A stretch of DNA of 20,365 nucleotides from a virus: positions 22,528 to 42,892 of the IMG/VR virus record IMGVR_UViG_3300030109_003790. The stretch is one strand, 5' to 3'. The position numbers and the translations under genes were made by a program. Of the stretch, positions 1,189 to 16,434 are shown in pieces; within the stretch, counting starts at the first letter, position 1, and every line of letters starts with the position of its first letter. The notes under the pieces are model-generated. The model searched no databases, was not told the origin of the DNA, and saw only the letters and a list, made by a program, of their open reading frames with translations.

Positions 1189-1599
1189 ATGTGGTTCGAT
1201 GTTCTTAAAAAGGAAAAAGATGCTTGTTATCATAAGGTTCGTTCAAGATATAAGAAATGGCCTTCTGCTTATGCTTCAGGGGCATTGGTTCAATGTAGAA
1301 AAAAGGGTGCTGCTAATTGGGGTAATAAATCTAAAAAGGTTAAGAAATCAATTGGTGATGGTGTTTTAAAGGATTGGGTATCATGCGCTTCATGTACTGA
1401 TGATAAAAAGGGTACAGAACCTTGTGGTAGAAAAGACGCCTCAAAGGGTACAAAACGTAGATGTAGACCAACTTGTTCTGCCTGTAAAGATTACAAAAGA
1501 AGAGCCGGAGATTCTGGAAAGAAAAAGAAAAGAAAGGCCGGAACATTTTCAAAGGAAAAAGATAAGGGATTACATGGATGGTTTGAAAGGAGAGGATAA
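1189..1599 (+). CDS. Small basic Cys-rich protein, DUF5872-like
   Basis: The protein has 136 residues from the ATG chosen by ribosome binding site spacing. Residues 12-50 (ACYHKVRSRYKKWPSAYASG, then LVQCRKKGAANWGNK) match a small domain common in marine phages and algal viruses, which I recall as DUF5872; that name is from memory. The second half has Cys at 66, 69, 79, 92, 96 and 99, a likely zinc site, and a very Lys/Arg-rich tail suggesting nucleic acid contact. The first residues, WFDVLKK, carry the W-x-x-[IV]-[LI]-K motif shared with six other proteins here. Its stop is followed 3 bases later by the next start, with the Shine-Dalgarno inside its 3' end. Function is unknown. A structural or DNA-associated virion protein is an inference from position and charge. 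Confidence 0.8.
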   Translation: MWFDVLKKEKDACYHKVRSRYKKWPSAYASGALVQCRKKGAANWGNKSKKVKKSIGDGVLKDWVSCASCTDDKKGTEPCGRKDASKGTKRRCRPTCSACKDYKRRAGDSGKKKKRKAGTFSKEKDKGLHGWFERRG

Positions 1600-1601
1600 T
1601 T

Positions 1602-1988
1602 ATGAGTTGGGAAATTATATTGAAAGAATTGGCTTGCCCTAGAGCAACACAAGATTTAAAACTAAATACTAAGAATAGAAATATGGCTATTCAAGCAGAA
1701 CATATTAAATATGGTCCGCTTAATTTATCAGATGACCAATATTGGGTAGATGCCGCAGACCATTGGAACACTACACCCGAGGTTGCTAAACAATCTAATT
1801 GTAGTAATTGTATCGCATTTGATATTTCTCCTAGAATGGAAAAATGTATGCCGCTTGAAGGTGATTTAGGTTATTGTTGGATGCACCATTTTAAGTGCCA
1901 TAAAGATAGGACTTGTTATACTTGGGCCGCTGGTGGACCAATTGATGACGATAAGACTTCAAAGGAAAATCAACAGAAAGGTGAATAG
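1602..1988 (+). CDS. Small Cys/His-rich metal- or Fe-S-binding-like protein
   Basis: The protein has 128 residues. It begins MSWEIILKELACPRAT, the shared W-x-x-I-L-K motif extended to W-x-x-I-L-K-x(3)-C-x-R-A-T, which the next gene also has. Residues 67-105 hold C67-x2-C70, C82, C92-W-M-H-H-F-K-C99-H and C105-Y-T-W. I recall this pattern, with NCxNCxAFDIS and GYCWMHHFKC, from small marine phage proteins. It suggests a zinc or iron-sulfur site; a HiPIP-like cluster is one possibility, unproven. The segment is conserved-looking and folded, while the last 15 residues are charged and probably flexible. The ribosome binding site GGAGAGG overlaps the upstream stop. The role in the virion or host is unknown. 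Confidence 0.8.
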   Translation: MSWEIILKELACPRATQDLKLNTKNRNMAIQAEHIKYGPLNLSDDQYWVDAADHWNTTPEVAKQSNCSNCIAFDISPRMEKCMPLEGDLGYCWMHHFKCHKDRTCYTWAAGGPIDDDKTSKENQQKGE

Positions 1989-1989
1989 A

Positions 1990-2256
1990 ATGGAAGAATG
2001 GTTTGGTATATTAAAAGGCGGCCAATGCACTAGAGCGACAAAGAAAACGTCATCTACTGCTAAAGGTAAAAAATGGATGAAGTGTGTTTCTGATGGAAAG
2101 GGTGGATATAAACGAGTTCATTGGGGTCAAAGAGGTGTAACTGTTTCTGGTAAAAGAAGTGGTAAACGCAGAAAATCATTTAGAGCAAGACATAAATGTT
2201 CCTCATGTAAAGGTGGAGATAATTCCCCAAGATGCATGGCTTGTAGAGATTGGTGA
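1990..2256 (+). CDS. Small basic zinc-finger-like protein
   Basis: The protein has 88 residues. The frame is open further upstream to 1933, but the ATG at 1990 follows AGGTGAA with proper spacing and comes right after the previous stop (1986-1988), so it is chosen. The N-terminus MEEWFGILKGGQCTRATKK has the shared W-x-x-I-L-K motif and resembles that of the gene at 1602. The middle (KGKKWMKCVSDG, YKRVHWGQRGV) and the end (SFRARHKCSSCK, RCMACRDW) form C70-x2-C73-x8-C82-x2-C85, a probable zinc finger. The protein is strongly basic, so DNA or RNA binding is plausible. It is similar in style to the gene at 1189, and the pair may be distant paralogues. The type seems familiar from marine phages; no function is known to me. 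Confidence 0.8.
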   Translation: MEEWFGILKGGQCTRATKKTSSTAKGKKWMKCVSDGKGGYKRVHWGQRGVTVSGKRSGKRRKSFRARHKCSSCKGGDNSPRCMACRDW

Positions 2257-2260
2257 TATT

Positions 2261-2356
2261 ATGGTAAAAAAGAAATATACTAAAACTAAAATGTTCTTAG
2301 ATTGTTTAGATGAGATATTTGGTGTAAATGGTGAAAAACTAAAAGGTGATGAATAA
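2261..2356 (+). CDS. 31-residue miniprotein before the portal gene
   Basis: The ATG at 2261 follows GGTGAT at normal distance, and the stop TAA shares its last base with the portal ATG (TAATG). The frame is open back to 2159, but that part overlaps the previous gene and lacks a ribosome binding site. The peptide starts MVKKKYTKTKMFLDC and ends acidic (GEKLKGDE). No family is recognised. Its coupling to the portal gene suggests it may mainly aid portal translation, or encode a short accessory peptide. Confidence 0.55.
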   Translation: MVKKKYTKTKMFLDCLDEIFGVNGEKLKGDE

Positions 2357-3981
2357 TGGTAGAAGAAAAGCGTAGGTTTTCTATTCGTAATTTGTTCCGA
2401 AGAACAACTCCTAAACCTGCGGATAGAAAGGTATTCAATATTGGTATTCAAGAAAAAAGACAAGGATTGATGATGACAACTCCTATTCTTTATGAAATTG
2501 CTAATCAATCTGTTATTACTAGGACTTGTACCACCCAATTAAAAAATGAAGTATTTAGAAGAGGTTATGATTGGAAGAAAAATTTCTCAGAAAAATGTGT
2601 ATCTTGTGGTAAAGAAAATGAAAACCCTGTTGATAAATGTCCTGAATGTGGAAGTTTACAATTAGTTAGACCTGACACTAACCAATTAAAATATGCTAAA
2701 GATTTCTTAAATGGTTATGTTAATAAATCCAACCAATTATTTATTGATGTCCTTAAAGAATTAGAAGATGATTTAAATATTGTAGATGATGCTTATATAA
2801 TTTTGGTTAAAGAGTATTTCTTAGATAATAATGGTGAAATTAGAATGCACCGAATTAAAGAAATTTATAGGGGCGACCCAATTACTATGGCTATTTATTC
2901 TGATGATGTGGGAGAAAGGGGAACAAAGGGTTTTACATCATTAAATGATAGAACATTTATTTCTGAAGACCCTAATGAATGTCATCCTGAAACAGCAGAA
3001 ACATTACATCCTGTCCATTATGTAAATCGTGCAAAGGGGGAAGAACAATATTTTATTGAGGGTGAAGTGTTACACTTTAGTAAATATTCTCCTTCGAGAT
3101 TATATGGTCAATCCCCTGTTCTAACTTTATTTAGTCACATTACAACTCTTATTGCTATGGAAAGTTATGTTAATACTTCATACACTAAGAGTCGTATGCC
3201 AAGAGGATTGCTTGCTGTTCAAACTCGTAATATGGAGTCAATGAGAACATTTTGGCGTTCTGTTAAAGAAAAGATGGAGGAAGACCAACACTTTATCCCT
3301 GTTATGGGTATTGAGGCAGATAATGGAAAAGGTTCTGTTGAGTGGATTAAGTTTATGGATTCTCTTAAAGAGATGGATTATGTTGCGGTTAAGGAAGATT
3401 TACGAGATAGAATTGCGGCTTTCTATGGTGTAAGTAAAATCTTTATGGCAGATAATTCTGCAAGTGGTGGATTAAATAACGAAGGTATGCAAATTCTTGT
3501 TACTAATCGTGCAGTAGAAATGGCACAGAATGTATACAATCTTTATGTATTTCCTTGGTTAGTTAATGAGTTTGGAATTACCGATTGGAAATTAATATTA
3601 CCCCCATCAGAAGAAGAGGATGAGATTGCTGTAATGCGAAAAAGGGAGATTGAAGTTAATATTGCCGCTTCAATTAAGAATCTTGGTTTTGATATTGATA
3701 TGAATGAAGATGGTGAATTTACTTTTAAAAAGATAGAAAAGGAACCAGAGCAACCTAAAGGTGAAGATAAACCTGCTGAAAAAGACCCTTATGCTGGAAC
3801 AAATATTGATGCTAGTCAATTAGGTCAATTACAAGAACAAGCATTACAGGGAGGTAAAGATTCTCCTGAAGGTGGGGGTTCAAATAGAAACAAACCTCGT
3901 ATGAGTGTGGGGCCGCCGAATAGAAATACGGGATTACCGCAAGAAGCGGCAAATAACAATGTTGATAGAAGAACCGAATAA
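2356..3981 (+). CDS. Portal protein (HK97/SPP1-type) with inserted zinc ribbon
   Basis: Portal proteins form the dodecameric ring at one capsid vertex through which DNA is pumped. This 541-residue product has the usual length. The stem and wing part is recognisable in the centre: a helix with MESYVNTSYTKSRMPRG, a strand leading to a helix with RTFWRSVKEKM, and the hallmark DLRDRIAAFYGVSKIFM followed by a Gly/Asn-rich loop and a long helix ending in FPWLVNEFG. Residues 81-98 form C-x2-C-x10-C-x2-C (CVSCGKE, then CPECGS), a zinc ribbon inserted in the N-terminal part, which classic phage portals lack. The last 80 residues are low-complexity, rich in Pro, Gly, Gln and Asn. GGTGAT lies 5 bases before the ATG. 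Placement upstream of protease and capsid genes fits. Confidence in the portal call is high; the role of the ribbon is unknown. Confidence 0.88.
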   Translation: MVEEKRRFSIRNLFRRTTPKPADRKVFNIGIQEKRQGLMMTTPILYEIANQSVITRTCTTQLKNEVFRRGYDWKKNFSEKCVSCGKENENPVDKCPECGSLQLVRPDTNQLKYAKDFLNGYVNKSNQLFIDVLKELEDDLNIVDDAYIILVKEYFLDNNGEIRMHRIKEIYRGDPITMAIYSDDVGERGTKGFTSLNDRTFISEDPNECHPETAETLHPVHYVNRAKGEEQYFIEGEVLHFSKYSPSRLYGQSPVLTLFSHITTLIAMESYVNTSYTKSRMPRGLLAVQTRNMESMRTFWRSVKEKMEEDQHFIPVMGIEADNGKGSVEWIKFMDSLKEMDYVAVKEDLRDRIAAFYGVSKIFMADNSASGGLNNEGMQILVTNRAVEMAQNVYNLYVFPWLVNEFGITDWKLILPPSEEEDEIAVMRKREIEVNIAASIKNLGFDIDMNEDGEFTFKKIEKEPEQPKGEDKPAEKDPYAGTNIDASQLGQLQEQALQGGKDSPEGGGSNRNKPRMSVGPPNRNTGLPQEAANNNVDRRTE

Positions 3982-3992
3982 GGTGATTTTAG

Positions 3993-4592
3993 ATGAATTG
4001 GTGGAGTATTATTAAAAGAAGTCCTTATTTAGACCAAGCATCTTTAAATTATCAGGAAAATTTAATGGGTAGAGGGACCGGTCAAACTACATTTCAAACT
4101 GAACAGAATGTTGGTCCTAATCCAATTCCTCAACAAACATCAACCCAAACGCAAGTAACTCAACCTAAATTACGTTCCGGTCAACAACAATTAGATTTAG
4201 TAAATGTATCAAATCAACAAATCAATGCCCCAAGTGTACAAACATATCAACCATCACAAGCACAACAATTAGATATACAAGAATTGCCTAAAGACCAAAA
4301 AACTTTGCAAGAGTATGAAAGGGAAGAAAATCAAATTAGTAATATAACGCAAAATATTTCTCAACCGACTACGGCAGATAGTGGAACTGATGATTCAGAT
4401 GTTGGTGAAATTAGAGAAAATGTTAATCGTGCAAAACAAAATTTATCTCAATTACCAAGAGGGCCAAAAGCAAAGGTTTTAACTCAAGTATTAACTGATT
4501 TATCAGCCGCAGCAATTGACCCTGTTAATCAAAAAGATACTGCAATAGCAGCAAAAAAGAAATTACAAGAAGCATTCCCACAAGTATCATAG
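3993..4592 (+). CDS. Gln/Asn/Thr-rich low-complexity protein with N-terminal W motif
   Basis: The protein has 199 residues and starts MNWWSIIKRSPYLDQ, the shared W-x-x-I-I-K motif. Residues 25-110 are low-complexity, very rich in Gln, Thr, Asn and Pro, and probably unstructured. The final 70 residues look helical and Ala-rich (ENVNRAKQNLSQL, then VLTDLSAAAIDP and TAIAAKKKLQEAF). No enzyme motif is present. TAAGGTGATT at the junction fuses the portal stop to the ribosome binding site. It may be an internal head protein delivered through the W motif, or a flexible scaffold-associated factor; both are inference. Confidence 0.75.
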   Translation: MNWWSIIKRSPYLDQASLNYQENLMGRGTGQTTFQTEQNVGPNPIPQQTSTQTQVTQPKLRSGQQQLDLVNVSNQQINAPSVQTYQPSQAQQLDIQELPKDQKTLQEYEREENQISNITQNISQPTTADSGTDDSDVGEIRENVNRAKQNLSQLPRGPKAKVLTQVLTDLSAAAIDPVNQKDTAIAAKKKLQEAFPQVS

Positions 4593-4604
4593 GGAGGAAT
4601 TATT

Positions 4605-4829
4605 ATGACAAGTAGACAAGAATTAGCAAAAATTCGTAAAGAATTGCAAGCAGCCGAAAGAGCGGTTGCTATGAAAGAAAGAAATGAAGTTAAACAGAGT
4701 AGAAATATGGGACCGGTTGGATTACCGAGTGCTGAAACCCATCATAATCCTAGAACTCAAACTAAGGACTTAGATTATGTAATTCATTTACCACCGAAGC
4801 AAGGTAAGAGAGCCGAAAATAAGTGGTGA
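4605..4829 (+). CDS. Small charged helical protein, unknown function
   Basis: The protein has 74 residues with a good ribosome binding site (GGGAGG, 6-8 bases before ATG). Residues 3-32 are an uninterrupted charged helix (RQELAKIRKELQAAERAVAM), likely coiled-coil. The rest is polar with HHNPRTQTKDLDYVIHLPP. The stop TGA lies inside the GGTGAT that serves the next gene, so the two are probably translationally coupled. I do not recognise the family. Confidence 0.7.
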   Translation: MTSRQELAKIRKELQAAERAVAMKERNEVKQSRNMGPVGLPSAETHHNPRTQTKDLDYVIHLPPKQGKRAENKW

Positions 4830-4833
4830 TTTT

Positions 4834-7392
4834 ATGAGTTTGCTTAAGGCTTACTTAAAGGGTCATACTGACCCTGTTTTGTTAGCCAAGGCATACTATG
4901 AAGATATGGTGTATAAATCTGTTGAGGCGGTTGAAAAACTTATTGCTGAAGAACTTACCTTTGATATGGATAAGGATATGAAAGTTTGGAATCAGGAAAT
5001 TAAAGAAACTCAAGATGAAATTAAATTTTGGAAGGGTTTGTATAATGATGTTAGTAATTCAGACGCACTTAAAATATTATTTGGAATAGACCCTGTTATG
5101 GAAAGAACCACACAAGCGATGAGTGAAGAAGAAGGTACACCGGAAGAAGTAGAAACAATTCCTTATTCAGAAATACCTCCTTATATTAAAGAATTAGAGG
5201 GACATATTAAAAATGTTCAGGCTAATATTAATGACGCTATCGAAGAATATAATGAAACAGTTAAACGAATTACTGAAATGGATGCAGATGAATTTAAAGA
5301 AGGTAAAAGAAAATGGCCAGAAGAAGTTTATATTAGAATCCATGAATTAGGCTTAAATTACATTGAATCTAAATTAGATAGTTATAAGGAAAGATTTGAA
5401 ATTCTTAAGGAATCTGGTGAAATACCACAAATTAGACCTAAGAAATTAAATACTATTGATAAAAAGGTTGAGACGCAACTAAAGCGTTGGAAAAAATTAG
5501 GTAGAGATAAAAGACCTTCTAATAAGGATAGGCAAGAAATATTATATGGGATTACAAATACGCTAAGTATTGATTCTCCAGAATGGAGATATAAATATTA
5601 TGAGGATTTAATTAATGAGTGGGAAGTTAAAAAGAAGCGTAGTATAAAAGAGTTAGATGAGTATAAGCGTAAAGATGAAAAAGAACCCTATGTTTCTGAA
5701 ACTCCTAAGGAAAGAAAAGATTCTAAAACAGATAGGTCTAAATTAGATAGTAAATCTAAGGGTAATTTATTTTATTCAGATGAAGAATGGTGGAAACAAT
5801 TATCTAACCAATCTAAAAACGTATCCTCTAGAAAAGTATTTCAAGAGGCTTTAGGTAAATATTTTAAAGACTCTCCTTCCTCCTTTGATGTGCCTGTAAT
5901 TGCTGGTAATAAAACTAAAACTGGTATAGGTGAAATACAAGTAGAAGGTGGAGAGGCTAAGTATATTAAAGAGACTCCTGCAACAAAATTAGCAAACCTT
6001 AAAAAATTATATGCTATTTTTGAAAAATTACCTGAAGGGGATAGAGATAGAAATGTTAAAATTATTATGGATGGTTTACAGGAAGAAATAGAACAGTTAG
6101 ATTTAACTGTCAGTTCTGGTAAAGAAGATAAATTAACATTTAAAGAACAAGGTAAAAAAATACTTAAGTTATTAGTTACTGAATTAGATAAATTTTATAA
6201 TTCAATTAGGGACGCTGAGGAATCTAAACCCCAAAGAGCAATTTCTGCATTAAATGCGATTAAAGGTACAGGTCTTAAATTAAATGAATTAAAAACATTT
6301 GCTATGGGAAAGGTAACTATTAAGTCATTAGTAGATTCTAATGATAGGGATGTTAGAGATAGGGCAGTTAGATTATTACAGACATTTGATGGCGGTAGTC
6401 CGGATTTTAGAAAGGTAGTAGAAAAATTAACTAGACCAATTAAAAGTCAGGATGATACAGTTATTGTTAGGCTAGAAAACCATTGGGATGATGATGATAT
6501 TCAGTCCTTATCTGGTAAAAGTAAAGAGGAACAACAAGCATTAAATAGAATTTATGATGATTTGTTGGGTAGATTTGAAGGGGTTCTTGATGAAATAGAA
6601 GGTGCTGATGTTAAAATTGCAGAACCAGATTTAGATAATAAAATTGAAGAAACTTTAGAACAAATGCAAATGGCATTAGAAAGCATTCAAGAAAGCCTGA
6701 AGCAAACTGAAATGGAATTTGAAGGAACAGCATTAGAAATTAAAGATAATATTGATAATGTTGATGAAGAGACTTTTGAAGATATGGTTACAGAAGATGC
6801 TTTGGATTGGTTTATTGATACATATGAGAAATTTCAAGAACAATCTTGGGAAGTATTAAGAAGATTAAATAGAGATGATGAAGACTTTATTGAAATTCAA
6901 ACACTTAGAAGAAAAATCATGGATGAGATTAAAAAATTACCTCAGTTACAAGGGTTAATTGAACTTGACGATAAGGCTTGGAAAAAATCACATGGTGGAA
7001 TTATGACAGAAAGGCGTCTAATTTCTGAAAGATTGCAGGGCCAAATCGCTATGGCCGGTATAGAAGGAAGTCAATATAGTAAGTTAAAAGATGCAGAATA
7101 CGCTAGTAAATATGTTGATGCATCTTTACCTATGGCTACTACCCAAAGGGGAATTACTAAACGGAAAAGACTTATTAAGAAAATTTTAGATAACAAAGAA
7201 TTAAAAAATTCAGATTTTGATTGGGATGTTAAACAGACTTCTGATAGACGTAGACAAATGATTAAAGAAATTGATGAAGAATACGATGAAGCAGATGTTG
7301 GTCAAAGAGAAACTGAAGAACTAATTGAAGGTGGGGAAGAGGAAGAATTTGATATTGGTGAATTATCTGGTAGATATGAGTCAGAGAGGTGA
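4834..7392 (+). CDS. Large charged coiled-coil-rich protein (852 residues), unknown function
   Basis: This is the largest protein in the window. It is rich in Glu, Asp and Lys, has almost no Cys, and shows no signal peptide or membrane segment. Long helical stretches occur at about 50-290 (KVWNQEIKETQDEIKFWK and others) and again at about 585-690 (EETLEQMQMALESIQESL). Between them residues 345-380 are strand-like (DVPVIAGNKTKTGIGEIQV). The end is acidic (ELIEGGEEEEFDIGELSG). Arginine is coded almost only by AGA/AGG, as in most of the window. Size, composition and place between portal and protease fit a minor head, inner-core or scaffolding protein. A DNA-ejection or internal virion protein is also possible. 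No homologue is recognised. Confidence 0.75.
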   Translation: MSLLKAYLKGHTDPVLLAKAYYEDMVYKSVEAVEKLIAEELTFDMDKDMKVWNQEIKETQDEIKFWKGLYNDVSNSDALKILFGIDPVMERTTQAMSEEEGTPEEVETIPYSEIPPYIKELEGHIKNVQANINDAIEEYNETVKRITEMDADEFKEGKRKWPEEVYIRIHELGLNYIESKLDSYKERFEILKESGEIPQIRPKKLNTIDKKVETQLKRWKKLGRDKRPSNKDRQEILYGITNTLSIDSPEWRYKYYEDLINEWEVKKKRSIKELDEYKRKDEKEPYVSETPKERKDSKTDRSKLDSKSKGNLFYSDEEWWKQLSNQSKNVSSRKVFQEALGKYFKDSPSSFDVPVIAGNKTKTGIGEIQVEGGEAKYIKETPATKLANLKKLYAIFEKLPEGDRDRNVKIIMDGLQEEIEQLDLTVSSGKEDKLTFKEQGKKILKLLVTELDKFYNSIRDAEESKPQRAISALNAIKGTGLKLNELKTFAMGKVTIKSLVDSNDRDVRDRAVRLLQTFDGGSPDFRKVVEKLTRPIKSQDDTVIVRLENHWDDDDIQSLSGKSKEEQQALNRIYDDLLGRFEGVLDEIEGADVKIAEPDLDNKIEETLEQMQMALESIQESLKQTEMEFEGTALEIKDNIDNVDEETFEDMVTEDALDWFIDTYEKFQEQSWEVLRRLNRDDEDFIEIQTLRRKIMDEIKKLPQLQGLIELDDKAWKKSHGGIMTERRLISERLQGQIAMAGIEGSQYSKLKDAEYASKYVDASLPMATTQRGITKRKRLIKKILDNKELKNSDFDWDVKQTSDRRRQMIKEIDEEYDEADVGQRETEELIEGGEEEEFDIGELSGRYESER

Positions 7393-7396
7393 TTAA

Positions 7397-7732
7397 ATGG
7401 AAGAATGGAAAGAAATTTTAAAGGAAGATAAAGGGTTACTAGTTAGTCTTGATGCTAAACAAAAAAAGAAACTCAAAAAGATTTTACAATCTGCTGAACC
7501 TTCAGAATATTTTGGTCAAGATTTTGCCAAAATGGGTGAATTAGTAGATATGTTGAGAGAATTAGACTTAATTAAAAGTGACAAGAAAATGACAAAAAGA
7601 ATGAAAACATTATCAGAAAAAAATGTTGACATTGTTGCTACTGCTGCTAAATTAAGAAAAGAATATGAAGATACTTATAGAGAACTAAGAGAAATTGTAT
7701 ATCCTAAAAGTAAGGGGATGAGAAAGAAATGA
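7397..7732 (+). CDS. Small basic helical protein with N-terminal W motif
   Basis: The protein has 111 residues and begins MEEWKEILKEDKGLLVS, a clear instance of the shared W-x-x-I-L-K motif. The rest is Lys/Glu-rich and helical, ending in a basic tail (YPKSKGMRKK). No domain is recognised. GAGGTGATTAA before the ATG contains the upstream TGA, and the stop overlaps the next start as ATGA. Position in the scaffold-like block plus the motif suggests a core or cargo protein of the prohead. Confidence 0.75.
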   Translation: MEEWKEILKEDKGLLVSLDAKQKKKLKKILQSAEPSEYFGQDFAKMGELVDMLRELDLIKSDKKMTKRMKTLSEKNVDIVATAAKLRKEYEDTYRELREIVYPKSKGMRKK

Positions 7733-7965
7733 ATGAGAAAGATGAAACATTAGAAATTTTGAAACTACTAGTTAGTAAAATTCAAAAACTAGAAGAAACA
7801 GTGTATGACAAGGAAAATATATTAATGAAGTCGGGTTTTGTTGTTGCAAACACCCCCGTTCCTACGATGGATAATGGTACAGGAGTTATTCCTGATTCAA
7901 ATACTATTGCTAAAATGAGTTGGGATGACATTAATAAATTAGTGGCGAAAATGGAGGGATATTAA
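7729..7965 (+). CDS. 78-residue coiled-coil protein with scaffold-like C-terminal helix
   Basis: An N-terminal helix (LEILKLLVSKIQKLEETVYD) with heptad-like hydrophobics is followed by a Gly/Pro linker. The C-terminal 25 residues run IPDSNTIAKMSWDDINKLV and on to the end. That tail matches the last 27 residues of the protease-scaffold fusion at 11240 (IPSYEDIAKMDWNEIHLTM...): nine positions are identical, including IAKM and W. The start overlaps the upstream stop (ATGA), and the stop overlaps the next start (TAATG). I infer a stand-alone mini-scaffold or adaptor that uses the same docking helix. No named family is recognised. Confidence 0.72.
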   Translation: MNEKDETLEILKLLVSKIQKLEETVYDKENILMKSGFVVANTPVPTMDNGTGVIPDSNTIAKMSWDDINKLVAKMEGY

Positions 7966-8674: not shown

Positions 8675-11203
8675 ATGTCATCTGGCGGGTTGTTGTTTGA
8701 AAAGGATATAAATCCTGTTTCAAGGCGTATTCAGCGTCTTTTTGAAGGCGTTAGAGCAGCCTATCTATCTGCAAAACAAGACCCAAAGGAATACAGTAAG
8801 GCATGGAAAAAAGAAGTTGATGCCTTATATGAAGATTACAACGCTACTGATGATTTAGCATCAGCACTACGGGAAGTAATTAATGACGATGATATAGAAT
8901 CTTCTGATGTAAAAAATCCTGAATCTAATACTGCTTCAAAAATATACGAAGCAATTAAAGAACTACGATATGAGTCTGAACACGTAAAAGACCCATTTGT
9001 AAAGAAATTTAAAGACCAAACATTAGAATCTTTAATGAAGGATAAAGGTATTCTTGCATCATTTATTCATTGGGTTATGAGAAGAAGCAAAAATGCTCTT
9101 CCAATTGAAGTTTGGGAAAAGTACCTACCTAGAGGCGACCAAATTACAGACGGGTATGTGGGTCTTGACCTACATAGTAAGGACATACCCCTCTACATTA
9201 TGGAGCATTACGGTGAAAAGAAAGACACACAAGCAGTTAAAGCAAAAGTTAAGGCTGCTATGGGCTTATTAGAGCGTATATACAAAGAACATTACAGTGA
9301 GTCGAAGTGGAAGTTGTTGCTTGGCGTAGAGATATTGAAAGAAGAAAAAGAAGATATTGATTTTATTAAACCAAATAAACCCATGTATAGAATTTTTGAA
9401 TTGGATGATATAAATGAATTACGAGGCTTTACCGGTGAATGGTTGGTTCAAGAAAAATATGACGGAATGAGAGTTCAACTACATAAGATTGATGATAAAG
9501 TAAAAATTTATTCTTTTAACGGTAAAGACATTACTGATAAATGTCCAAAACAAGTAGAGATTCTTGAGCAAAAAAAGTTCGGTGAATGTATTTTAGATGC
9601 TGAATTAATGTTGTTTGAGAAAGATAGGCCTTTACATAGAGCAAAGGTTGTTTCTCATGTTTTTAAAGGAGTAGAAACTGAAGGTGATTTAAAGGTTCAT
9701 GTGTTTGATATTATGAGGCATAATGAGAGGGATATGACAGAAGAACCTTTACAAGATAGAATTCAAATTTTATTCCAAAATTACTCCATGCATTCTGATG
9801 AGTTATTGGCATTCCCTTCAAAAAAGGATACTAGAATTGCTGATAGCATTAAAGATATTGGTGAATATGCTAAAGAAATAATGAAGATACCAACAGCCGA
9901 AGGTGTGGTTATTAAAGATTTAACTTCTACTTATATTAGAGGAGCAAGAAAAAACCCTAAGTGGATTAAATGGAAGAAATTTGTAGACTTAGATTTAGTT
10001 GTGTTAGATAAGAGTTCAACTAAGTCAAATATGTTTTCTTATACTTTAGGCGCAGGACCATTAACAATTGAGGAATCTAGAAAAATGGATTCTATGAAAG
10101 TAGATGATAGGTATTATCTAAATGTTGGTAAAGCGTTAAATACTAAAGTTGATGTTGACATAGGTTCTATTATTCGAGTTAAGGTTGACGAAGTTAGAAA
10201 GAATAAAAAGGGTCAATTTAGAGTTTATACTGCACAGTTTGTTGAAATACCCGAAGTTAATATGCCTGATAAGGTAATTACTTTAGAGTTTTTAGCAGAC
10301 TCAAAGGATGGTAAATCAACTGAGTATAAAACCTCAGCACTAACTAAAGCAATCTTAATTACTGATAATGTTCATGGTGAGGCTGAAGTTATTTGTAAAG
10401 AAGATTTAGATGGTTTTACTATTTATGGATTTAAGGAAGATAACTTAATGGCTAAAAATGCTATGTTAGATATTGATTTATGGAAAGAACAAATTGGTGA
10501 AATTTATAAAGAAAGAAAGGGCAAATTTAGAGTTGGCATCAAAAACTTCCTAGAAGAGCAACCTGAAAATACTGCTACTCTTGATGAGATTTTAGATTAC
10601 ATTAGTAAAAATAAAGGTTTATTACAATTGTATGAAGATATATTTAATAGTAAATCTAGAGAATTAAAAGAATTCTTAACAAACCAAGCAGATGAAATTA
10701 CTTATTCAACTAATAATAAATTTGTTGCAGATGATTCAATAATTGAAAAAGATGATTCTGATTACAAGACACCTAAAAATTATAGAAATGGTAAATTTAA
10801 ATTATATCTAAGAAAAGATGAAAATTTATCTTTAACCTTTATGTTAGATGATGCTAAATTGGGTTGGGAAATAGATATTAAATCAGTTGATGATGTATTT
10901 GATTTATTTGGCAAAGCGGGTAAATATCCTGCTCAAGTCCAAAGAACGGTATCTAAGGAAAAGTTAATTGATGAAGGTGATGTTGAATTAGGTGTTCAAA
11001 GACATGGTTATCATGAATATTTTATTAAGGGTGATAAATTTGATACAAAGTTACATTTGAGAGTAATACCTTTAAAGGGCCAAAAACAATGGTTAGCCTT
11101 TACTAGTTTTGAAGATGAACCTGTTGACCCTAAATCAGATGATGGAATATGGGATATTCGGGAGGACAAGAACAAAGATTTGTCCTTCTCGACCCTTGAT
11201 TGA
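8675..11203 (+). CDS. ATP-dependent DNA ligase-like multidomain protein
   Basis: The protein has 842 residues. Residues 1-235 are helical and unrecognised. Residues about 235-450 form a nucleotidyltransferase core. Motif I is QEKYDGMRVQ, with K261 as the expected AMP-accepting lysine. CILDAELMLF is motif III-like, EGVVIKD (E409) is motif IV and KWIKWKK (from K429) is motif V. Residues about 460-560 look like an OB fold (DIGSIIRVKVDEVRKNKKGQ). The C-terminal 130 residues contain GVQRHGYHEYFIKGDKF and LHLRVIPLKG, then QWLAF; this vaguely recalls the 3'-phosphoesterase domain of LigD, but only weakly. Family knowledge predicts sealing of nicked duplex DNA with ATP. Its place just before the prohead protease is odd for a ligase and suggests a virion-linked role. 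The start has only a weak AAGGTAT ribosome binding site. Ligase fold confidence is high; the terminal domains are unassigned. Confidence 0.82.
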   Translation: MSSGGLLFEKDINPVSRRIQRLFEGVRAAYLSAKQDPKEYSKAWKKEVDALYEDYNATDDLASALREVINDDDIESSDVKNPESNTASKIYEAIKELRYESEHVKDPFVKKFKDQTLESLMKDKGILASFIHWVMRRSKNALPIEVWEKYLPRGDQITDGYVGLDLHSKDIPLYIMEHYGEKKDTQAVKAKVKAAMGLLERIYKEHYSESKWKLLLGVEILKEEKEDIDFIKPNKPMYRIFELDDINELRGFTGEWLVQEKYDGMRVQLHKIDDKVKIYSFNGKDITDKCPKQVEILEQKKFGECILDAELMLFEKDRPLHRAKVVSHVFKGVETEGDLKVHVFDIMRHNERDMTEEPLQDRIQILFQNYSMHSDELLAFPSKKDTRIADSIKDIGEYAKEIMKIPTAEGVVIKDLTSTYIRGARKNPKWIKWKKFVDLDLVVLDKSSTKSNMFSYTLGAGPLTIEESRKMDSMKVDDRYYLNVGKALNTKVDVDIGSIIRVKVDEVRKNKKGQFRVYTAQFVEIPEVNMPDKVITLEFLADSKDGKSTEYKTSALTKAILITDNVHGEAEVICKEDLDGFTIYGFKEDNLMAKNAMLDIDLWKEQIGEIYKERKGKFRVGIKNFLEEQPENTATLDEILDYISKNKGLLQLYEDIFNSKSRELKEFLTNQADEITYSTNNKFVADDSIIEKDDSDYKTPKNYRNGKFKLYLRKDENLSLTFMLDDAKLGWEIDIKSVDDVFDLFGKAGKYPAQVQRTVSKEKLIDEGDVELGVQRHGYHEYFIKGDKFDTKLHLRVIPLKGQKQWLAFTSFEDEPVDPKSDDGIWDIREDKNKDLSFSTLD
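11163..11186 (+). other. Hairpin at the 3' end of the ligase-like gene
   Basis: AGGACAA (11163-11169) pairs with TTGTCCT (11180-11186) around a 10-base loop. It lies inside the last codons of the ligase-like gene, 17 bases before its stop. It could slow transcription or protect RNA ends ahead of the protease/capsid block, but there is no clear U-run and it may be chance. Confidence 0.3.
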
Positions 11204-11210: not shown

Positions 11211-11218
11211 TTAATATA
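11211..11218 (+). promoter_or_regulatory. Possible archaeal TATA box before protease and capsid genes
   Basis: TTAATATA lies about 22-29 bases before the ATG at 11240, in one of the few real gaps (36 bases). That ATG lacks the AGGTGAT seen elsewhere, having only GTGGTAAT. An archaeal promoter here would start RNA at or next to the ATG, giving a leaderless transcript. No BRE was recognised, and an AT-rich genome gives such matches by chance. Confidence 0.3.
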
Positions 11219-11239
11219 GTAATCTCGGGATGTGGTAAT

Positions 11240-12724
11240 ATGTCGGCGGCGTCTATGCTTAAGACTGTAAATATGAATCCAATGGATTTTACAATAATAA
11301 AGTCAGATGATTTACATATTGGTGGATATGCGTCTATTGAGATTGTTGATAAGCAAAATGATTTGATTACACTTGAAGCATTAGGTGAGGCAGTAACTAA
11401 GTTTATGGTCGATACAAAATATAGAAATGTAATGACAAACCATTCTAATGTTCAGGTCGGAGAAGTAATTAAAGAATACCGAGATACAACAGGAAGATTG
11501 TGGAAAACTGGCGTAGATGATGTTGGCTTTTTTGTTGTAATTAAATTAAGAGATGATATTGAAAAGGCTAAAGAAGTTAGTCGAGAAATTAGAAAGGGTA
11601 CTTTACGTTCATTTAGTATTGGAGGCCAAGCATTAGAAAAGCGAAAGCGAAATAATGAAGAATTGGGCGACTACAATGAGATTAGTAAACTAGAATTACA
11701 TGAAGTTACTATTTGTGAAAAAGGTATTAACCCTGAAGCAAAGTTTGATATTCTAAAACAGGATGTGGGCGGCATGACAAATATTGAAGATGCAATTAAA
11801 GAATTAAATAGTCTATTGAAGGCTATTGGTGAAGGTGGAGAAACACCTGATGATGTAGAGGCTAGATTACTTGGATTAGCCGCAGAAGGTTCAGCAAGAT
11901 TTGGACCTGAAGATACTACTGGTGCATCATTACCATTAGATACTCCTTCAGAACAAGAAATGGAAAGAGGCAGATTACAAGCAGAAGAAGATGATATTTC
12001 TGCAAAAAGAGAAGATATGGATAAGGCCCATTGTGGCACAAATAAATTAGATAGTGAAGAAAAAGGTTCCGATAACACGGAGGAATTGAAAATGAAAGAA
12101 GAAGAAATGGACAAAGGGGAATATATGGATTCCTCCGATGACGAAGAAAAGTTGATGGATGAAGACAAAATGGCTCATAAAGGGGCTGGCGACGATGAAG
12201 AAATGAAGGGAGAAACTGATTTACCAACAGGTTATCTTGAAAGAGGCGAACAGTCTGAAGTTGTTGTTGAAGGCGGTAAGCCACGAAACAAGCACCAGCA
12301 GATTTCTGTACCTACAAATGCAAATCCAACTGATGTCGGTAAATCAACATGGACTGGCGAAACACATGGTCTTGACCTAAGCCACGAAAATCTTGAAAAA
12401 GCCTATCAACAGTTTAAGGCAGAGCAAATGGAAAAACTTGCTTATGAAGATATTAAGCGAAGTTTCTCTGACCGACTTACCTCAGAATTGGCTGTTAAGA
12501 AGGCTAATGTTGAGCGAAATGAATATGACGCTCAGGCTGAAGTTAGCGAACTAAAGAAGCAATTTAGCGAATTACTTGATACTCTCAAGAATGATGCTGA
12601 AATGACAATTGCAAAGCAGCAAAAAGTTGTTGCTGATTTAAATATTCCATCTTACGAGGACATCGCAAAGATGGATTGGAATGAAATTCACCTAACAATG
12701 CAGCGTTTGGAGGAACAACGCTGA
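11240..12724 (+). CDS. Prohead protease (XkdF/S78-type) fused to scaffold-like tail
   Basis: The protein has 494 residues. Residues 15-172 match the prohead serine protease fold: GGYASIEIVDKQNDLI, then TNHSNVQVGEVI (H68), LRSFSIGG (S126) and LELHEVTICEKG (E155) as the probable catalytic set by analogy with phage proteases of the XkdF/S78 group. Residues about 180-370 are acidic and low-complexity. Residues 380-465 are a coiled coil (AEVSELKKQFSELLDTLK). The final 27 residues form a helix with IAKMDWNEI that recurs in the gene at 7729. In tailed viruses such a protease removes scaffold and capsid delta regions during head maturation. The fusion suggests that protease and scaffold come from one polypeptide, freed by self-cleavage (inference). 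No separate scaffold gene lies between it and the capsid gene. Arg codons change to CGA near its end. Confidence 0.85.
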   Translation: MSAASMLKTVNMNPMDFTIIKSDDLHIGGYASIEIVDKQNDLITLEALGEAVTKFMVDTKYRNVMTNHSNVQVGEVIKEYRDTTGRLWKTGVDDVGFFVVIKLRDDIEKAKEVSREIRKGTLRSFSIGGQALEKRKRNNEELGDYNEISKLELHEVTICEKGINPEAKFDILKQDVGGMTNIEDAIKELNSLLKAIGEGGETPDDVEARLLGLAAEGSARFGPEDTTGASLPLDTPSEQEMERGRLQAEEDDISAKREDMDKAHCGTNKLDSEEKGSDNTEELKMKEEEMDKGEYMDSSDDEEKLMDEDKMAHKGAGDDEEMKGETDLPTGYLERGEQSEVVVEGGKPRNKHQQISVPTNANPTDVGKSTWTGETHGLDLSHENLEKAYQQFKAEQMEKLAYEDIKRSFSDRLTSELAVKKANVERNEYDAQAEVSELKKQFSELLDTLKNDAEMTIAKQQKVVADLNIPSYEDIAKMDWNEIHLTMQRLEEQR

Positions 12725-12745
12725 ATTTAGAGTGACAGAAATAAA

Positions 12746-12752
12746 AGGTGAG
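12746..12752 (+). promoter_or_regulatory. Ribosome binding site that fixes the capsid start at 12757
   Basis: AGGTGAG lies 4 bases before the ATG at 12757. A GTG at 12748 is in frame but sits inside this site, so it cannot be served by it. The ATG is therefore the start. Confidence 0.8.
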
Positions 12753-12756
12753 AAAA

Positions 12757-14091
12757 ATGACAAAATATATTAACACTTTGAAAGACTTGGAAGCCGCAAC
12801 ATACGGTAACTTTGGAAATAACAATATTCTAAAGGGTGCTGGACTTGTTGCTGGACTTCACACAGGACACGATGACGCAACTGCATTGAATGGTACGGCT
12901 GGACCGGGATTAAACCTATACAATGTAATTTACGGCCAAAAGGTTTGGTCTATGCTAAATCAGGAAATTAATCCTCTTAGTATTTTACCAAAGCGACCTT
13001 ACACTTCAAGTGGATGGCGTGTAATGACCCAAAGACCCGCTGGTGGTTCTGACCCTGCATTTGGAATTGGCGATACGGCTTATTCTGCTGGTTCTCAACT
13101 ATTAGCACCTAAAGCAGACCGAATTGGTGGTGTAGATGAAAATCACGCATTAGGAACTGCTGGATTACAAGCACTAGCACCAGAATATACCACACTATTT
13201 ATGAGTCCTAAGACTATTGCTCATATGTTCGATTATTCGGAACTTGCAGCAGAAATGGCAAAGATTGATGATGGTGTTGGAGATATTCGCGCAATTATTC
13301 GAGAAGATATGGGTAAATTCCATGCTGAGGTTCAGTCTAAAATGCTAGTTATGGAACTAGAGCGATATGACCATGCTTCAGTTGCAGCAAACAATTTAGA
13401 GCGAAATTACACTTCTTTAAACAAGATTGTTGCTTCTGCTCTTGAATTGCAAGCATTAAAGGGTGCTAGTTTAATTGCTGGTACTGTTGGTTCACTACCT
13501 GACCAAATTGCAAAGATTTACGGTAATGATGACCGAGATACTTCATCAGGTGTAACTGCTGGATTTATGGATGCAACAGTTAACTTTGGTGCAGGTTACG
13601 GTTCAAGCCAAGTACGAGCATTGACAACAACTCTCTTGAATACTCTAATTCAAGAATTGCGAACTGCTGGTGGTACTCCAAAGGTTATCTTAACTGGATA
13701 TGATACTATTCAGACTATTGCTGACCTATTGCAGAGCCAAGAGCGATTCCTTGAGCGAAAAGAAATTATTCCTACACATGGCGGAGTAAAGGGTGTAAAG
13801 GGCCGAGAAGTCGGTTTCCGAGTAGCGACATATTTCGATATTCCGCTAATTCCTGCTAAGGATATGCCAAATACAGGAGCAGCAACTACTCAAGTTAGTG
13901 ACCTGCTTTTCCTTGATACTGACCATTTGTGGCTTTCAGTCATGAAACCAACTCAATACTTTGAAGATGGTATTAATCATGGAAACCCATTCGGTATCGG
14001 AACTCTTGGAAATCGAGGTATGTTCCGAACAATGGGCGAAACAGGATGCAGTTTCTTTAAGGGACAAGGCAAATTGACAAATGTACAGTGA
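12757..14091 (+). CDS. Major capsid protein (HK97-fold, inferred)
   Basis: The protein has 444 residues from the ATG set by the ribosome binding site. It directly follows the protease-scaffold gene, the usual order. An N-terminal Gly/Ala-rich arm of about 60 residues precedes ILPKRPYTSSGWRV, then a long spine-like helical region (DDGVGDIRAIIREDMGKFHA) and a nucleic-acid-free beta-rich C-terminal half with LDTDHLWLSVMKPTQYF. No catalytic motif is seen. Codon use is distinctive: 14 of 17 Arg codons are CGA, against about 1 of 45 in the large gene at 4834, and Leu uses more CTA/CTT. That fits strong expression or a separate origin. Assignment rests on order, size and composition; the HK97 fold itself was not verified. 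No obvious delta domain is present, so the scaffold function is probably in the protease fusion. Confidence 0.82.
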   Translation: MTKYINTLKDLEAATYGNFGNNNILKGAGLVAGLHTGHDDATALNGTAGPGLNLYNVIYGQKVWSMLNQEINPLSILPKRPYTSSGWRVMTQRPAGGSDPAFGIGDTAYSAGSQLLAPKADRIGGVDENHALGTAGLQALAPEYTTLFMSPKTIAHMFDYSELAAEMAKIDDGVGDIRAIIREDMGKFHAEVQSKMLVMELERYDHASVAANNLERNYTSLNKIVASALELQALKGASLIAGTVGSLPDQIAKIYGNDDRDTSSGVTAGFMDATVNFGAGYGSSQVRALTTTLLNTLIQELRTAGGTPKVILTGYDTIQTIADLLQSQERFLERKEIIPTHGGVKGVKGREVGFRVATYFDIPLIPAKDMPNTGAATTQVSDLLFLDTDHLWLSVMKPTQYFEDGINHGNPFGIGTLGNRGMFRTMGETGCSFFKGQGKLTNVQ

Positions 14092-14130
14092 TTGGTGTCA
14101 CTTTAAATTAAAATAAAAAGGTGATTTAAA

Positions 14131-14493
14131 ATGACAGCAACAGTTACATTATTGGCAAACCACAAAGGAGTTACCACGCCTAGAGTTATGGGTGACGAAT
14201 ATGTTGTTGATGCAGTAGTAGATATTACTTCATATACCGCAAATGGTGAACAATTTACAGCAAGTGAATTTGGTCTAAGCACAGTTACTTGTGTATCAGT
14301 CACAGGAATTTCTGTTGATACCATTAGTGGAGGATATGCAATTTCAATGATTGCACCTGAAGTATTATCAGGGGCGGCAACCGGAGGAAAATACGCGGCG
14401 GCTAGTTCTGCTGATTTCCAAATTCATGCCCCTGCTGCATCAAACACAGACAATATCGGAGAAATTCGATTAAGAATTTGGGGACAAATTTGA
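14131..14493 (+). CDS. Probable capsid decoration protein, beta-rich
   Basis: The protein has 120 residues, rich in Ala, Thr, Ser, Val and Gly, with alternating hydrophobics typical of a beta sandwich (YVVDAVVDITSYTANGEQFT, then SEFGLSTVTCVSVTGISV). The end IGEIRLRIWGQI is also strand-like. The pattern VDITSYTxxGE followed by FGLS resembles small phage head or tail structural proteins. It comes first after the capsid gene, behind AGGTGATTTAAA, which fits a decoration or cement protein. A tail or fibre component cannot be excluded. Confidence 0.65.
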   Translation: MTATVTLLANHKGVTTPRVMGDEYVVDAVVDITSYTANGEQFTASEFGLSTVTCVSVTGISVDTISGGYAISMIAPEVLSGAATGGKYAAASSADFQIHAPAASNTDNIGEIRLRIWGQI

Positions 14494-14502
14494 GGTGATT
14501 AA

Positions 14503-14892
14503 ATGGCAAAGATGACATTAGTAAATAACCAACATCCAAAAGGTCAATGTACCATTACGGGTTACGGGGATGACGAGTCATATTTGTTGCTTTATGATGT
14601 TGAAACAGAGGTTCATGTCAAACGAGCATTAACTTACTTGGGCGACTCGAACTTTAAATTGGCTTTTGATGCCGAGGAATTAAATAGTTTGGAAGAAGAT
14701 GACTTCTTACTTGCTACTCAATTATTAAAATTGACCTCGGCATCAGATGTCAAAAAGACATTATTGCCAAAAAAGAAAACAACTACCCAAAAGGTAAAAG
14801 AAGTAGTATCAACAGTTACTTCGACAGTAACACCAACCACCACAAACGACCAATCAACGGATGAGGCTGATTCAGCCAATGATTCTGCGTGA
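14503..14892 (+). CDS. Small protein with Thr/Lys-rich tail, unknown function
   Basis: The protein has 129 residues. Residues 1-85 look folded (KGQCTITGYGDDESYLLLYD, then VHVKRALTYLGDSNFKLAF). The tail has a basic patch (LLPKKKTTTQKVKEVV), then Ser/Thr/Val repeats and an acidic end. TGAGGTGATTAAATG joins it to the preceding gene. No family is recognised. Position among decoration-type genes suggests a head or neck structural protein. Confidence 0.65.
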   Translation: MAKMTLVNNQHPKGQCTITGYGDDESYLLLYDVETEVHVKRALTYLGDSNFKLAFDAEELNSLEEDDFLLATQLLKLTSASDVKKTLLPKKKTTTQKVKEVVSTVTSTVTPTTTNDQSTDEADSANDSA

Positions 14893-14915
14893 TTGCGTCA
14901 AGGTTATATGGTTGG

Positions 14916-14937
14916 GCCTCTCTCGGTAGAATGAGGC
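14916..14937 (+). other. Short intergenic hairpin
   Basis: In the 72-base gap 14893-14964, GCCTC (14916-14920) pairs with GAGGC (14933-14937) around a 12-base loop. The gap is locally GC-richer than its surroundings. It could be an RNA stability or weak termination element between the decoration block and the next gene. No U-run follows. The rest of the gap holds TAAATTAAATTA and an AGGTGAA ribosome binding site. Confidence 0.3.
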
Positions 14938-14964
14938 AACTCTAAATTAAATTAGGTGAAAATA

Positions 14965-15312
14965 ATGACTCAAGGTTGTAGAAGTAGTAGATTAATTACG
15001 GCAGATACGCTCGTTCATTCGGGCAGATGTAAATTAGTTAGTGTTCATGGTTATAATAACCACGCGACAACAAGTTGCACAGTTAAAATTTATGATAATA
15101 CTGCTGCTGGAACAGCGGCAAATCAAGTAGCAGAATTAATTTTACCTCCGCATTTATCAATGATAACCGATGATACTTCAGGTGGCGACCAAGATGCAAC
15201 ACAAAATACTACTATTCAAATAGAAGCCGATTATCACGGCGTAATATGTTTGACAGGACTTTATGTTGATGTTACCGGCGGAACACCTAGATTAACAGTT
15301 GAGTTTGCATAA
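14965..15312 (+). CDS. Beta-sandwich structural protein (decoration or fibre), probable
   Basis: The protein has 115 residues from ATG 14965, which follows AGGTGAA at 5 bases. An in-frame GTG at 14956 lies inside that site and is rejected. The sequence is strand-rich: SGRCKLVSVHGYNN, CTVKIYDNTAAGT, VAELILPP, then HGVICLTGLYVDVTGG and RLTVEF at the end. This layout, with the YDN turn and the closing GLYVDVTGG strand pair, is typical of small phage head-fibre or tail beta-sandwich proteins. Exact role is unknown. Confidence 0.65.
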   Translation: MTQGCRSSRLITADTLVHSGRCKLVSVHGYNNHATTSCTVKIYDNTAAGTAANQVAELILPPHLSMITDDTSGGDQDATQNTTIQIEADYHGVICLTGLYVDVTGGTPRLTVEFA

Positions 15313-15321
15313 GGTGGTTAA

Positions 15322-15702
15322 ATGGCAGCAATTAATAAAGACACAAGATTGGTTATGACAATTTTATTTGTCGGTGCAGTAAGTGGAATGAATGTGTATT
15401 TCTACGCTAATTATGGCGCAGATTTACCTTGGACAAAATTATCTCATGCAGTTCTCTTTTCGTTATTAACGATTGGGGGAATCATGGGTATTAAGGCGTT
15501 CTTTGATTTAATTATGAATGACCGAATGGAACTTTGGTTATTGGATAGAAAAATCAAAACCTATTGGGAAAAGAAAGCGCGTGAAGAACAGCAAAAGCAG
15601 AAAGTTATGGAAAGTATGCGGTCGCAAGGTTATTTCAATAATAATAGCCCATACCAACAACCTCAAGAAATTGGGATTGAATTCTTAGAACAAAATATGT
15701 GA
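15322..15702 (+). CDS. Small protein with two membrane segments
   Basis: The protein has 126 residues. Residues about 10-29 (LVMTILFVGAVSGMNVYFYA) and 42-64 (AVLFSLLTIGGIMGIKAFF) are hydrophobic membrane spans. A charged helix follows (LDRKIKTYWEKKAREEQQKQ), then a Gln/Asn/Pro-rich tail. Two spans plus a charged tail are compatible with a holin, but also with a membrane anchor for another protein. The gene is followed within 1.3 kb by another membrane protein and a membrane-anchored GTPase. GGTGG is the ribosome binding site, fused to the previous stop (TAAGGTGG). Confidence 0.7.
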   Translation: MAAINKDTRLVMTILFVGAVSGMNVYFYANYGADLPWTKLSHAVLFSLLTIGGIMGIKAFFDLIMNDRMELWLLDRKIKTYWEKKAREEQQKQKVMESMRSQGYFNNNSPYQQPQEIGIEFLEQNM

Positions 15703-15711
15703 TGTGGTTAA

Positions 15712-15930
15712 ATGGGATGGTTTTTCCCCGATATTTTTGGTGTTGATGAGCAAAATTTGGCTTATGATATGAGTCGCGCCCATTCAGCAGATGTTTGGTT
15801 TTTAAAAGTGAGGTTTTGGTGTTGGGGCATTGTTGCTTCAACTGCTTCTTTACTTATTGGTAATATAGCAGGTTCTTTAGGTTTTAATATTTTTGGTGGA
15901 TTATTCGACTTAATAAAAGAATTATTATAG
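15712..15930 (+). CDS. 72-residue membrane protein
   Basis: The sequence starts MGWFFPDIFGVDEQNLAYDM and has a strongly hydrophobic second half, residues about 33-68 (VRFWCWGIVASTASLLIGN, then AGSLGFNIFGGLFDLI), making one or two spans. The last residues (KELL) are amphipathic. The W in position 3 is not followed by the I-L-K of the shared motif, so it is not counted with those proteins. It could be a holin partner or part of a membrane complex with neighbours. Start: ATG after ATGTGGTTAA, with the upstream stop TGA inside the same junction. Confidence 0.65.
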   Translation: MGWFFPDIFGVDEQNLAYDMSRAHSADVWFLKVRFWCWGIVASTASLLIGNIAGSLGFNIFGGLFDLIKELL

Positions 15931-15938
15931 GTGATTAA

Positions 15939-16109
15939 ATGAAATGGAAAGATATTTTAAAAAATAAGAAACAAGGTATTACACGCCAATTAAGAAAGCC
16001 TGATTACATAGATTTAGACAAAGATGGTGACAAAGAGGAACCAATGGCTGAAGCAGCAAAAGATGCTAAAAAGCATGGAATTAAACATCAAATAAAGCGT
16101 GGTGATTAA
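15939..16109 (+). CDS. 56-residue protein with W motif and EF-hand-like loop
   Basis: The ATG at 15939 follows TAGGTGATTAA, which contains the previous stop. The frame ends with TAA at 16107-16109, one base before the next ATG. It starts MKWKDILKNKKQ, the shared motif. Residues 25-36 (DLDKDGDKEEPM) look like a calcium-binding loop of EF-hand or dockerin type (D-x-D-x-D-G), but the usual Glu in position 12 is Met, so binding is uncertain. The rest is basic and helical (AKDAKKHGIKHQIKRGD). Similar DxDxDGxKKEPM proteins are familiar to me from marine phages. Confidence 0.75.
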   Translation: MKWKDILKNKKQGITRQLRKPDYIDLDKDGDKEEPMAEAAKDAKKHGIKHQIKRGD

Positions 16110-16110
16110 T

Positions 16111-16434
16111 ATGAGTTGGAAGGATATAATTAAGCAGAATCCTGTTCCATTCGCCAACCAATTGGGGGCGGGTCAACAAGGTCAAAGAGATGGGAAAATA
16201 TTTGCAATTATGCAACAATTACCTAATGATTTACAAGAATTACAGAAAGGGGTTACTAATAAACAAAATGGTATTAGAACTGCTGAACAAATGAAAACTA
16301 GATTAGATGAATTAATTAGATTATTTAATGAACCGGATACAATGCCACAACCCGGTGGTATGACTCCACCTAATCCCTCACTTCAAGGTATGACTCCACC
16401 CCAAACTATGACTCCCCCTCAAACTCAACAATAG
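16111..16434 (+). CDS. 107-residue protein with W motif and Pro-rich MTPP repeats
   Basis: The start ATG 16111 follows GGTGATTA. In-frame GTG codons at 16099 and 16102 overlap the previous gene and its ribosome binding site, so they are rejected. The N-terminus MSWKDIIKQNPVPFANQL has the shared motif. A helical centre (IFAIMQQLPNDLQELQKG, then EQMKTRLDELIRLF) precedes a Pro/Gln/Thr-rich tail with three MTPP units. No family is recognised. The motif suggests cargo or scaffold contact; the tail is probably flexible. Confidence 0.75.
   Translation: MSWKDIIKQNPVPFANQLGAGQQGQRDGKIFAIMQQLPNDLQELQKGVTNKQNGIRTAEQMKTRLDELIRLFNEPDTMPQPGGMTPPNPSLQGMTPPQTMTPPQTQQ
16360..16419 (+). repeat. Degenerate repeat encoding MTPP units
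   Basis: ATGACTCC(A/C)CC occurs at 16360, 16390 and 16408 within the gene at 16111, giving (G)MTPPNPS, (G)MTPPQT and MTPPQT. Copies differ at one base and in spacing, so the number of units may vary between relatives. Confidence 0.6.

Follow-up and report, generated by a model that had tools for sequence, protein, structure and literature searches.

The closest described counterpart of the element reported here is the capsid-targeting sequence of bacteriophage T4, which is borne by the internal proteins IPI, IPII and IPIII; its residues 4 and 7 are needed for targeting, its residues 8 and 10 for processing (PMC9026906). In phage P1, the N-terminal residues of the large protein DarB send a reporter into the head, but no consensus common to the Dar proteins was found (PMC9024508). 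Magroviruses (Aoguangviridae) have a capsid protein, an S78 protease, a portal, a terminase and a ligase, opposed replication and morphogenesis clusters, and a relation to the haloarchaeal Druskaviridae (PMC10768690, PMC10160649). Here, we analyzed a stretch of 20,365 nucleotides (the window), positions 22,528 to 42,892 of the virus record IMGVR_UViG_3300030109_003790 (42,892 bases), whose features fit a magrovirus-like tailed virus of the order Magrovirales. Seven proteins encoded in the window begin with the peptide W-x-x-[IV]-[LI]-K, called the tag below, which the two cited magrovirus descriptions do not mention, though the original 2017 description may. We propose that the tag is probably a modular procapsid-loading signal for head cargo.

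The original prediction, made from the window alone, had named the seven proteins, and all seven N-termini were found, with W at residue 2 (protein 1189), residue 3 (1602, 3993, 15939 and 16111) or residue 4 (1990 and 7397); the C-x-R-A-T common to 1602 and 1990 was present as well. The ATG of each tagged gene lies close behind the upstream gene and follows a purine-rich Shine-Dalgarno-like sequence, mostly of the GGTGATT type, which makes the start codons credible. The 43-kb record, which spans mainly the morphogenesis side of the genome, carries at least 14 additional tagged genes (12 in its first 20 kb and two more before the terminase) and thus at least 21 in total. The idea that large genes are free of the tag was correct for the portal, ligase, protease, capsid and GTPase genes, but tagged proteins of 262, 386, 617 and 782 residues occur in the same record.

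In order to compare the frequency of the tag with chance, we counted the pattern W..[ILVM][ILVMF]K beginning at residues 2–5 and repeated the count after shuffling residues 2–30 (200 shuffles). The tag was found on 145 of the 1522 predicted proteins of 82 related loci, far above the shuffled mean of 0.5 and maximum of 3, as the original prediction would require. W was residue 3 in 119 of these 145 proteins. Aligned on W, the tagged proteins give the consensus S/T, W, E/K/F/Q, D/N/E, I/V/T, L, K, with sequences diverging past K, and the typical form is M-[ST]-W-[EKQF]-[DNE]-[IV]-L-K. I-L-K without W is not enriched at N-termini (28/563 vs 31/717) and was rejected as a motif on its own.

Tagged genes occur on the morphogenesis strand only. 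We examined 12 near-complete genomes, each read as overlapping stretches: 178 of 760 genes on the strand of the capsid gene were tagged, in comparison to 0 of 737 on the opposite strand (Fisher p = 5e-58, a nominal value since the genomes are related; the zero is true of every genome). Most tagged genes also lie near the head genes, 170 of 482 capsid-strand genes being tagged upstream of the capsid gene and 8 of 278 downstream. Among capsid-strand genes more than 6 kb downstream of the capsid gene, the side on which tail genes would lie by analogy with the haloarchaeal virus HCTV-1, only 2 of 162 are tagged. We also searched 2.9 million viral contigs for the tag in one of its DNA forms, using no other gene as bait, and 115 stretches matched. 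Out of 50 contigs examined, 42 held a magrovirus capsid gene and three more its terminase (45/50), while four of the remaining five hold several tagged genes. In 257 Gb of genomes of bacteria and archaea, a looser pattern matched 30 times, never under an archaeal title, and no such tag was present within 41 kb around the capsid gene of HCTV-1 (Druskaviridae). Thus, it can be concluded that the tag is a feature of this virus group rather than of cells; that it is a host feature is not supported.

The tag behaves as a module. By similarity of their bodies, 323 tagged proteins fell into 182 families, 133 of them singletons, and inside the tag leucine uses all six of its codons and isoleucine all three; it is thus the peptide itself that is under selection. 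Copies also occur at C-termini and in linkers, nine on the capsid strand vs none on the other in the 12 genomes. In orthologs of one protein, the tag is N-terminal in G002 and L082 and C-terminal in G032 (NWKDILKREMIC), and a degenerate form is seen in G042 (SWQDILRW) and G015 (KWDEVLRV). All 36 sequences compared in the gp7397 family have the W, at a variable spacing to I-L-K. The AlphaFold2 model of gp7397 has a mean pLDDT (predicted local distance difference test) of 57 for the first ten residues and 86–95 for residues 21–100, so that in the one family modeled the tag stands outside the confidently folded core, as had been anticipated; a fold search with this model gave no match at E ≤ 0.001.

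The KDACYHKV... body of gene 1189 occurs widely among marine phages, in 369 records. In magrovirus-type loci all 13 distinct copies of this body have a W-tag or a degenerate form upstream; a regular expression caught seven of them, and visual inspection added the others (WFEELK, WFEEVK and one lying at a distance). In the wider scan, copies begin directly with M-A or M-P or lie inside long untagged proteins. This comparison is not fully blind, because several loci came from the tag scan. The notion that phages in general carry a T4-type targeting sequence at the corresponding position on homologs of this body, as S-B68 does, was dropped as general evidence, since counting left only two cyanophages. 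Tandem arrays offer another view of the module. At L082:17612-20000 and L083:840-2820 there is a run of at least five tandem tagged genes with a common ILKVQVLDTSTxLSSINEPM, followed by different bodies, and the 408-residue gene preceding the array contains the same segment internally. Tandem arrays upstream of the terminase have the tag, a lineage-specific extension and then different bodies, and other genomes hold comparable arrays, each with an extension of its own. It looks as if these arrays were diversifying behind a fixed address label.

A finding new to this work is that, by sequence, the core of the tag also ends the protease-scaffold protein and a small coiled-coil-like protein, gp7729 (78 residues). 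The protease-scaffold ends with M-[DS]-W-x-[DE]-[IVL] in 64 of 64 distinct relatives, one of which has E before W, and gp7729 ends with the same M-[SD]-W-x-[DE]-I motif in 47 of 50; both proteins have the scaffold-type end in 12 of 12 genomes. When 39 conserved internal tryptophan columns of the core families were scored with a tag profile that ignores Met, these two ends were the most tag-like, and they are the only columns with Met at −2. That a start Met followed by S/T reproduces the M-[SD]-W of the scaffold would account for the position of W at residue 3 of the tag. The protease-scaffold model shows long helices, the final one starting at the W of the C-terminal motif; this model is poor overall (predicted template modeling score 0.26) and was used only for local helices and disorder.

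The I-L-K half of the tag resembles the invariant F-x-I-[LI]-K and F-D-I-L-K sites that flank the protease domain. These sites are unstructured in the weak protease-scaffold model, and they could simply be part of the protease fold. In HK97, protease cleavage occurs after a lysine (K103/S104; PMC10275583). This precedent, together with the likeness to the flanking sites, makes cleavage by the prohead protease after the tag lysine plausible, although we offer it tentatively and would sooner expect it to be wrong than right.

Restriction to the morphogenesis strand, head-proximal genes, 182 body families, a tag outside the gp7397 core and the tag core at the scaffold C-terminus together favor the loading function. 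The originally predicted cargo-loading tag, which scaffold, protease or shell would read, is the best explanation and survived all tests run. As a whole the prediction is partly supported: packaging and cleavage are putative, and the tag is neither strictly N-terminal nor limited to small proteins. We suggest that the tag is a copy of M-x-W-x-[DEN]-I, the core of the motif at the C-terminus of the protease-scaffold encoded by the same virus, and that this motif would bind to the shell of the capsid or to some other partner in common. Via the motif, scaffold and cargo would then dock on one and the same site, for which the inner face of the shell is the most likely candidate, and the tagged proteins would be enclosed as the procapsid forms. 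The [LI]-K half, missing from the scaffold copy, may be a later cut site for the prohead protease, and cutting would free the cargo for delivery with the DNA. Whether the tag indeed repeats the docking end of the scaffold seems to us an even call. The chances are likewise balanced for the broader proposal that throughout the virus order scaffold and cargo share one position-independent docking code, by which each genome would mark 10–24 proteins for enclosure.

Several points weigh against loading as the function of the tag. The termini of the protease-scaffold and gp7729 are possibly related and would therefore amount to about one independent coincidence, and the scaffold motif is without the L-K half and differs from the tag at the +1 and +4 positions. 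In the W-aligned tagged proteins, residues past the tag lysine give no clear consensus. The gene calls came from our own simple predictor, and the genomes are metagenomic and related. Moreover, the distribution of the tag over late, head-proximal genes is compatible with other late assembly roles. Tagged proteins might thus be recruited to a late assembly site outside the capsid interior (the portal, the packaging motor or an assembly focus) without being packaged, which would agree with the clustering of tagged genes around and upstream of the terminase and portal. We consider this unlikely, since the core of the tag also terminates the scaffold and gp7729 and the tagged bodies are too many and too diverse to resemble a set of assembly factors. 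There is still less to be said for a tag that serves mainly as a recognition or cutting site of the prohead protease, with no role in loading. The flanking sites and the HK97 cut after K103 (PMC10275583) speak for such a site, but tryptophan is the most constant residue of the tag, I-L-K lacks enrichment in its absence, the scaffold end has W-x-x-I without L-K, and the removal of eight residues has by itself no obvious use.

Explanations that deny the peptide a function fare worse. If tagged genes had been copied from one gene or one 5′ gene segment, the tag being functionless, one would expect tagged paralogs in tandem arrays that have an extension of about 20 residues in common, and since such arrays exist, duplication does contribute. 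As the whole explanation this is highly improbable in view of the 182 body families, the free synonymous variation in the tag and the C-terminal and internal copies. The same observations make common descent of whole proteins insufficient, as the original prediction had argued, and the number of body families led us to reject it. We give the least credence to a translation-initiation or mRNA element that incidentally encodes the tag residues. Most copies do open a gene directly after a ribosome-binding-like sequence, but synonymous codons vary freely, copies stand at C-termini and in linkers, and none is on the replication strand. A nucleotide or start-codon element was accordingly rejected, as all Leu and Ile codons are used and C-terminal and internal copies exist.

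Returning to the loading function, we compared the tag with the T4 peptides MKTYQEFIAE and MKTFKEFTST. In T4, about ten N-terminal residues are common to proteins with different bodies, and here a short N-terminal peptide stands on unrelated bodies (145/1522 proteins, 182 families). A prohead protease, S78-like or gp21-like, and an internal scaffold are likewise found, and in both peptides a hydrophobic residue stands three positions after an aromatic one (MKTYQEFI in T4, MSWEDILK here). However, the consensus here is M-[ST]-W-x-x-[IV]-L-K and not MK[TS][YF].EF, and no T4-type L/I-x-E cutting motif is conserved after the tag lysine of the W-aligned proteins, where positions diverge. The virus is archaeal, with 10–24 tagged proteins per genome in comparison to few in T4, and its tag is also C-terminal or internal, with the core repeated at the scaffold C-terminus. 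By analogy, the tag may work like the T4 capsid-targeting sequence; the spacing of key residues is alike, the sequences are unlike, and we do not claim homology. Encapsulin cargo-loading peptides are similar to the proposed tag in being short and transferable and in loading diverse cargo into an HK97-fold shell; unlike the tag, they are usually C-terminal, serve one or few enzymes and act without a scaffold; the likeness drawn here is one of general features. In P1, no consensus common to the Dar proteins was found (PMC9024508), whereas one motif is found here on 182 body families. Proteins of T4-like cyanophages contain T4-type targeting-like segments, internal KTFSDFIEE and KTFQDFIEE and C-terminal RTFKEFLEYIE (L294:2030-2653, L297:1877-2659, L298:4527-4736), a hint that T4-type signals, too, may not be tied to one position.

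Pfam and PHROGs each matched at most six of 120 tagged representatives, the families matched being PAP2, pentapeptide repeats, DUF5754 and DUF6943. Strongly basic bodies (net charge above +0.08 per residue) make up 21% of tagged proteins, in comparison to 7% of untagged proteins on the same strand and 4% on the opposite strand. Several tagged proteins have HExxH-like motifs, among them HESTH, HEVTH and HETIH (L268:8906-9541, L269:4294-4935 and L251:18689-19549). They are possibly zinc peptidases, a guess at the level of the motif, and neither Pfam nor Protein Data Bank sequences supported this identity. In protein 15939-16109, the tag is followed by a D-x-D-x-D-G module resembling a calcium-binding loop (PDYIDLDKDGDKEEPM), which is also present in a protein of cyanophage S-SCSM1 annotated as a virion protein.

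Positions of the features in the window are collected in Table 1. The capsid protein of the window (SU10_MCP, E = 2.5e-8) has 392 related stretches among viral contigs and shares 24% identity with that of HCTV-1. The portal (Phage_portal, E = 6e-11) and the prohead protease (Peptidase_S78, E = 4.7e-9, followed by a long helical C-terminal extension) were recognized by Pfam, an ATP-dependent DNA ligase is also encoded, and the genomes of relatives consist of two opposed gene clusters, replication and morphogenesis. We assign the virus to Magrovirales because of the capsid relation to HCTV-1, the ligase and these opposed clusters; an HK97-fold capsid related to Druskaviridae, S78 protease, portal, ligase and opposed clusters are the features described for the order (PMC10768690). 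Viruses of this order are linked to marine Poseidoniales archaea and are distant relatives of Druskaviridae (PMC10768690, PMC10160649).

Some neighboring genes deserve mention. A zinc-ribbon-like stretch (CVSCGKENENPVDKCPECG) with weak Pfam matches is predicted near residues 54–100 of the portal. The ligase (window 8675-11203, 842 residues) has a long N-terminal extension and sits inside the head cluster, outside the replication cluster; its gene is 3.7–4.2 kb ahead of the capsid gene in 12 of 12 genomes. The capsid cluster also holds a small GTPase-like protein (window 16445-17107) with weak Roc/MMR_HSR1 matches, which is present in 57 relatives. One record, G010 (184,733 bases), has two capsid genes about 91 kb apart and therefore looks like an assembly join of two magrovirus genomes.

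Table 1. Tags, tag-like ends, candidate protease sites and head genes in the window
Feature	Position	Strand	Remarks
Tag MWFDVLK, N-terminal	1189..1209	+	136-aa protein 1189-1599; body resembles DUF5872, strongly basic
Tag MSWEIILK, N-terminal	1602..1625	+	128-aa protein 1602-1988
Tag MEEWFGILK, N-terminal	1990..2016	+	88-aa protein 1990-2256
Portal protein, untagged	2356..3981	+	Phage_portal match
Tag MNWWSIIK, N-terminal	3993..4016	+	199-aa protein 3993-4592
Tag MEEWKEILK, N-terminal	7397..7423	+	111-aa protein 7397-7732; W invariant in relatives
C-terminal motif MSWDDI... of gp7729, resembles tag core	7915..7962	+	78-aa protein 7729-7965; helical coiled-coil-like start
F-T-I-I-K before protease domain, candidate protease site	11288..11302	+	of the invariant F-x-I-[LI]-K type
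F-D-I-L-K at protease/scaffold junction, candidate protease site	11744..11758	+	invariant in 42 sequences
C-terminal motif MDWNEI... of protease-scaffold	12671..12721	+	protein 11240-12724; conserved in relatives
Major capsid protein, untagged; suspected docking partner	12748..14091	+	profile match, HCTV-1 similarity
Tag MKWKDILK, N-terminal	15939..15962	+	56-aa protein 15939-16109; D-x-D-x-D-G module after tag
Tag MSWKDIIK, N-terminal	16111..16134	+	107-aa protein 16111-16434

The tag is a simple marker by which contig fragments can be assigned to this virus group. If it is a loading signal as proposed, repeating the docking end of the scaffold would be a concrete mechanism of cargo choice, and a second, independent capsid-targeting system would be available for comparison with T4. 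For uncultured, abundant archaeal viruses, the cargo of the virion would become readable from sequence alone, exposing about 180 families of candidate delivered proteins. To our knowledge, almost nothing is known about takeover and counter-defence in archaeal cells, and the tagged proteins, which are hypervariable and include pentapeptide-repeat, PAP2, strongly basic and HExxH-bearing ones, would form a defined list of candidates for delivery into these cells.

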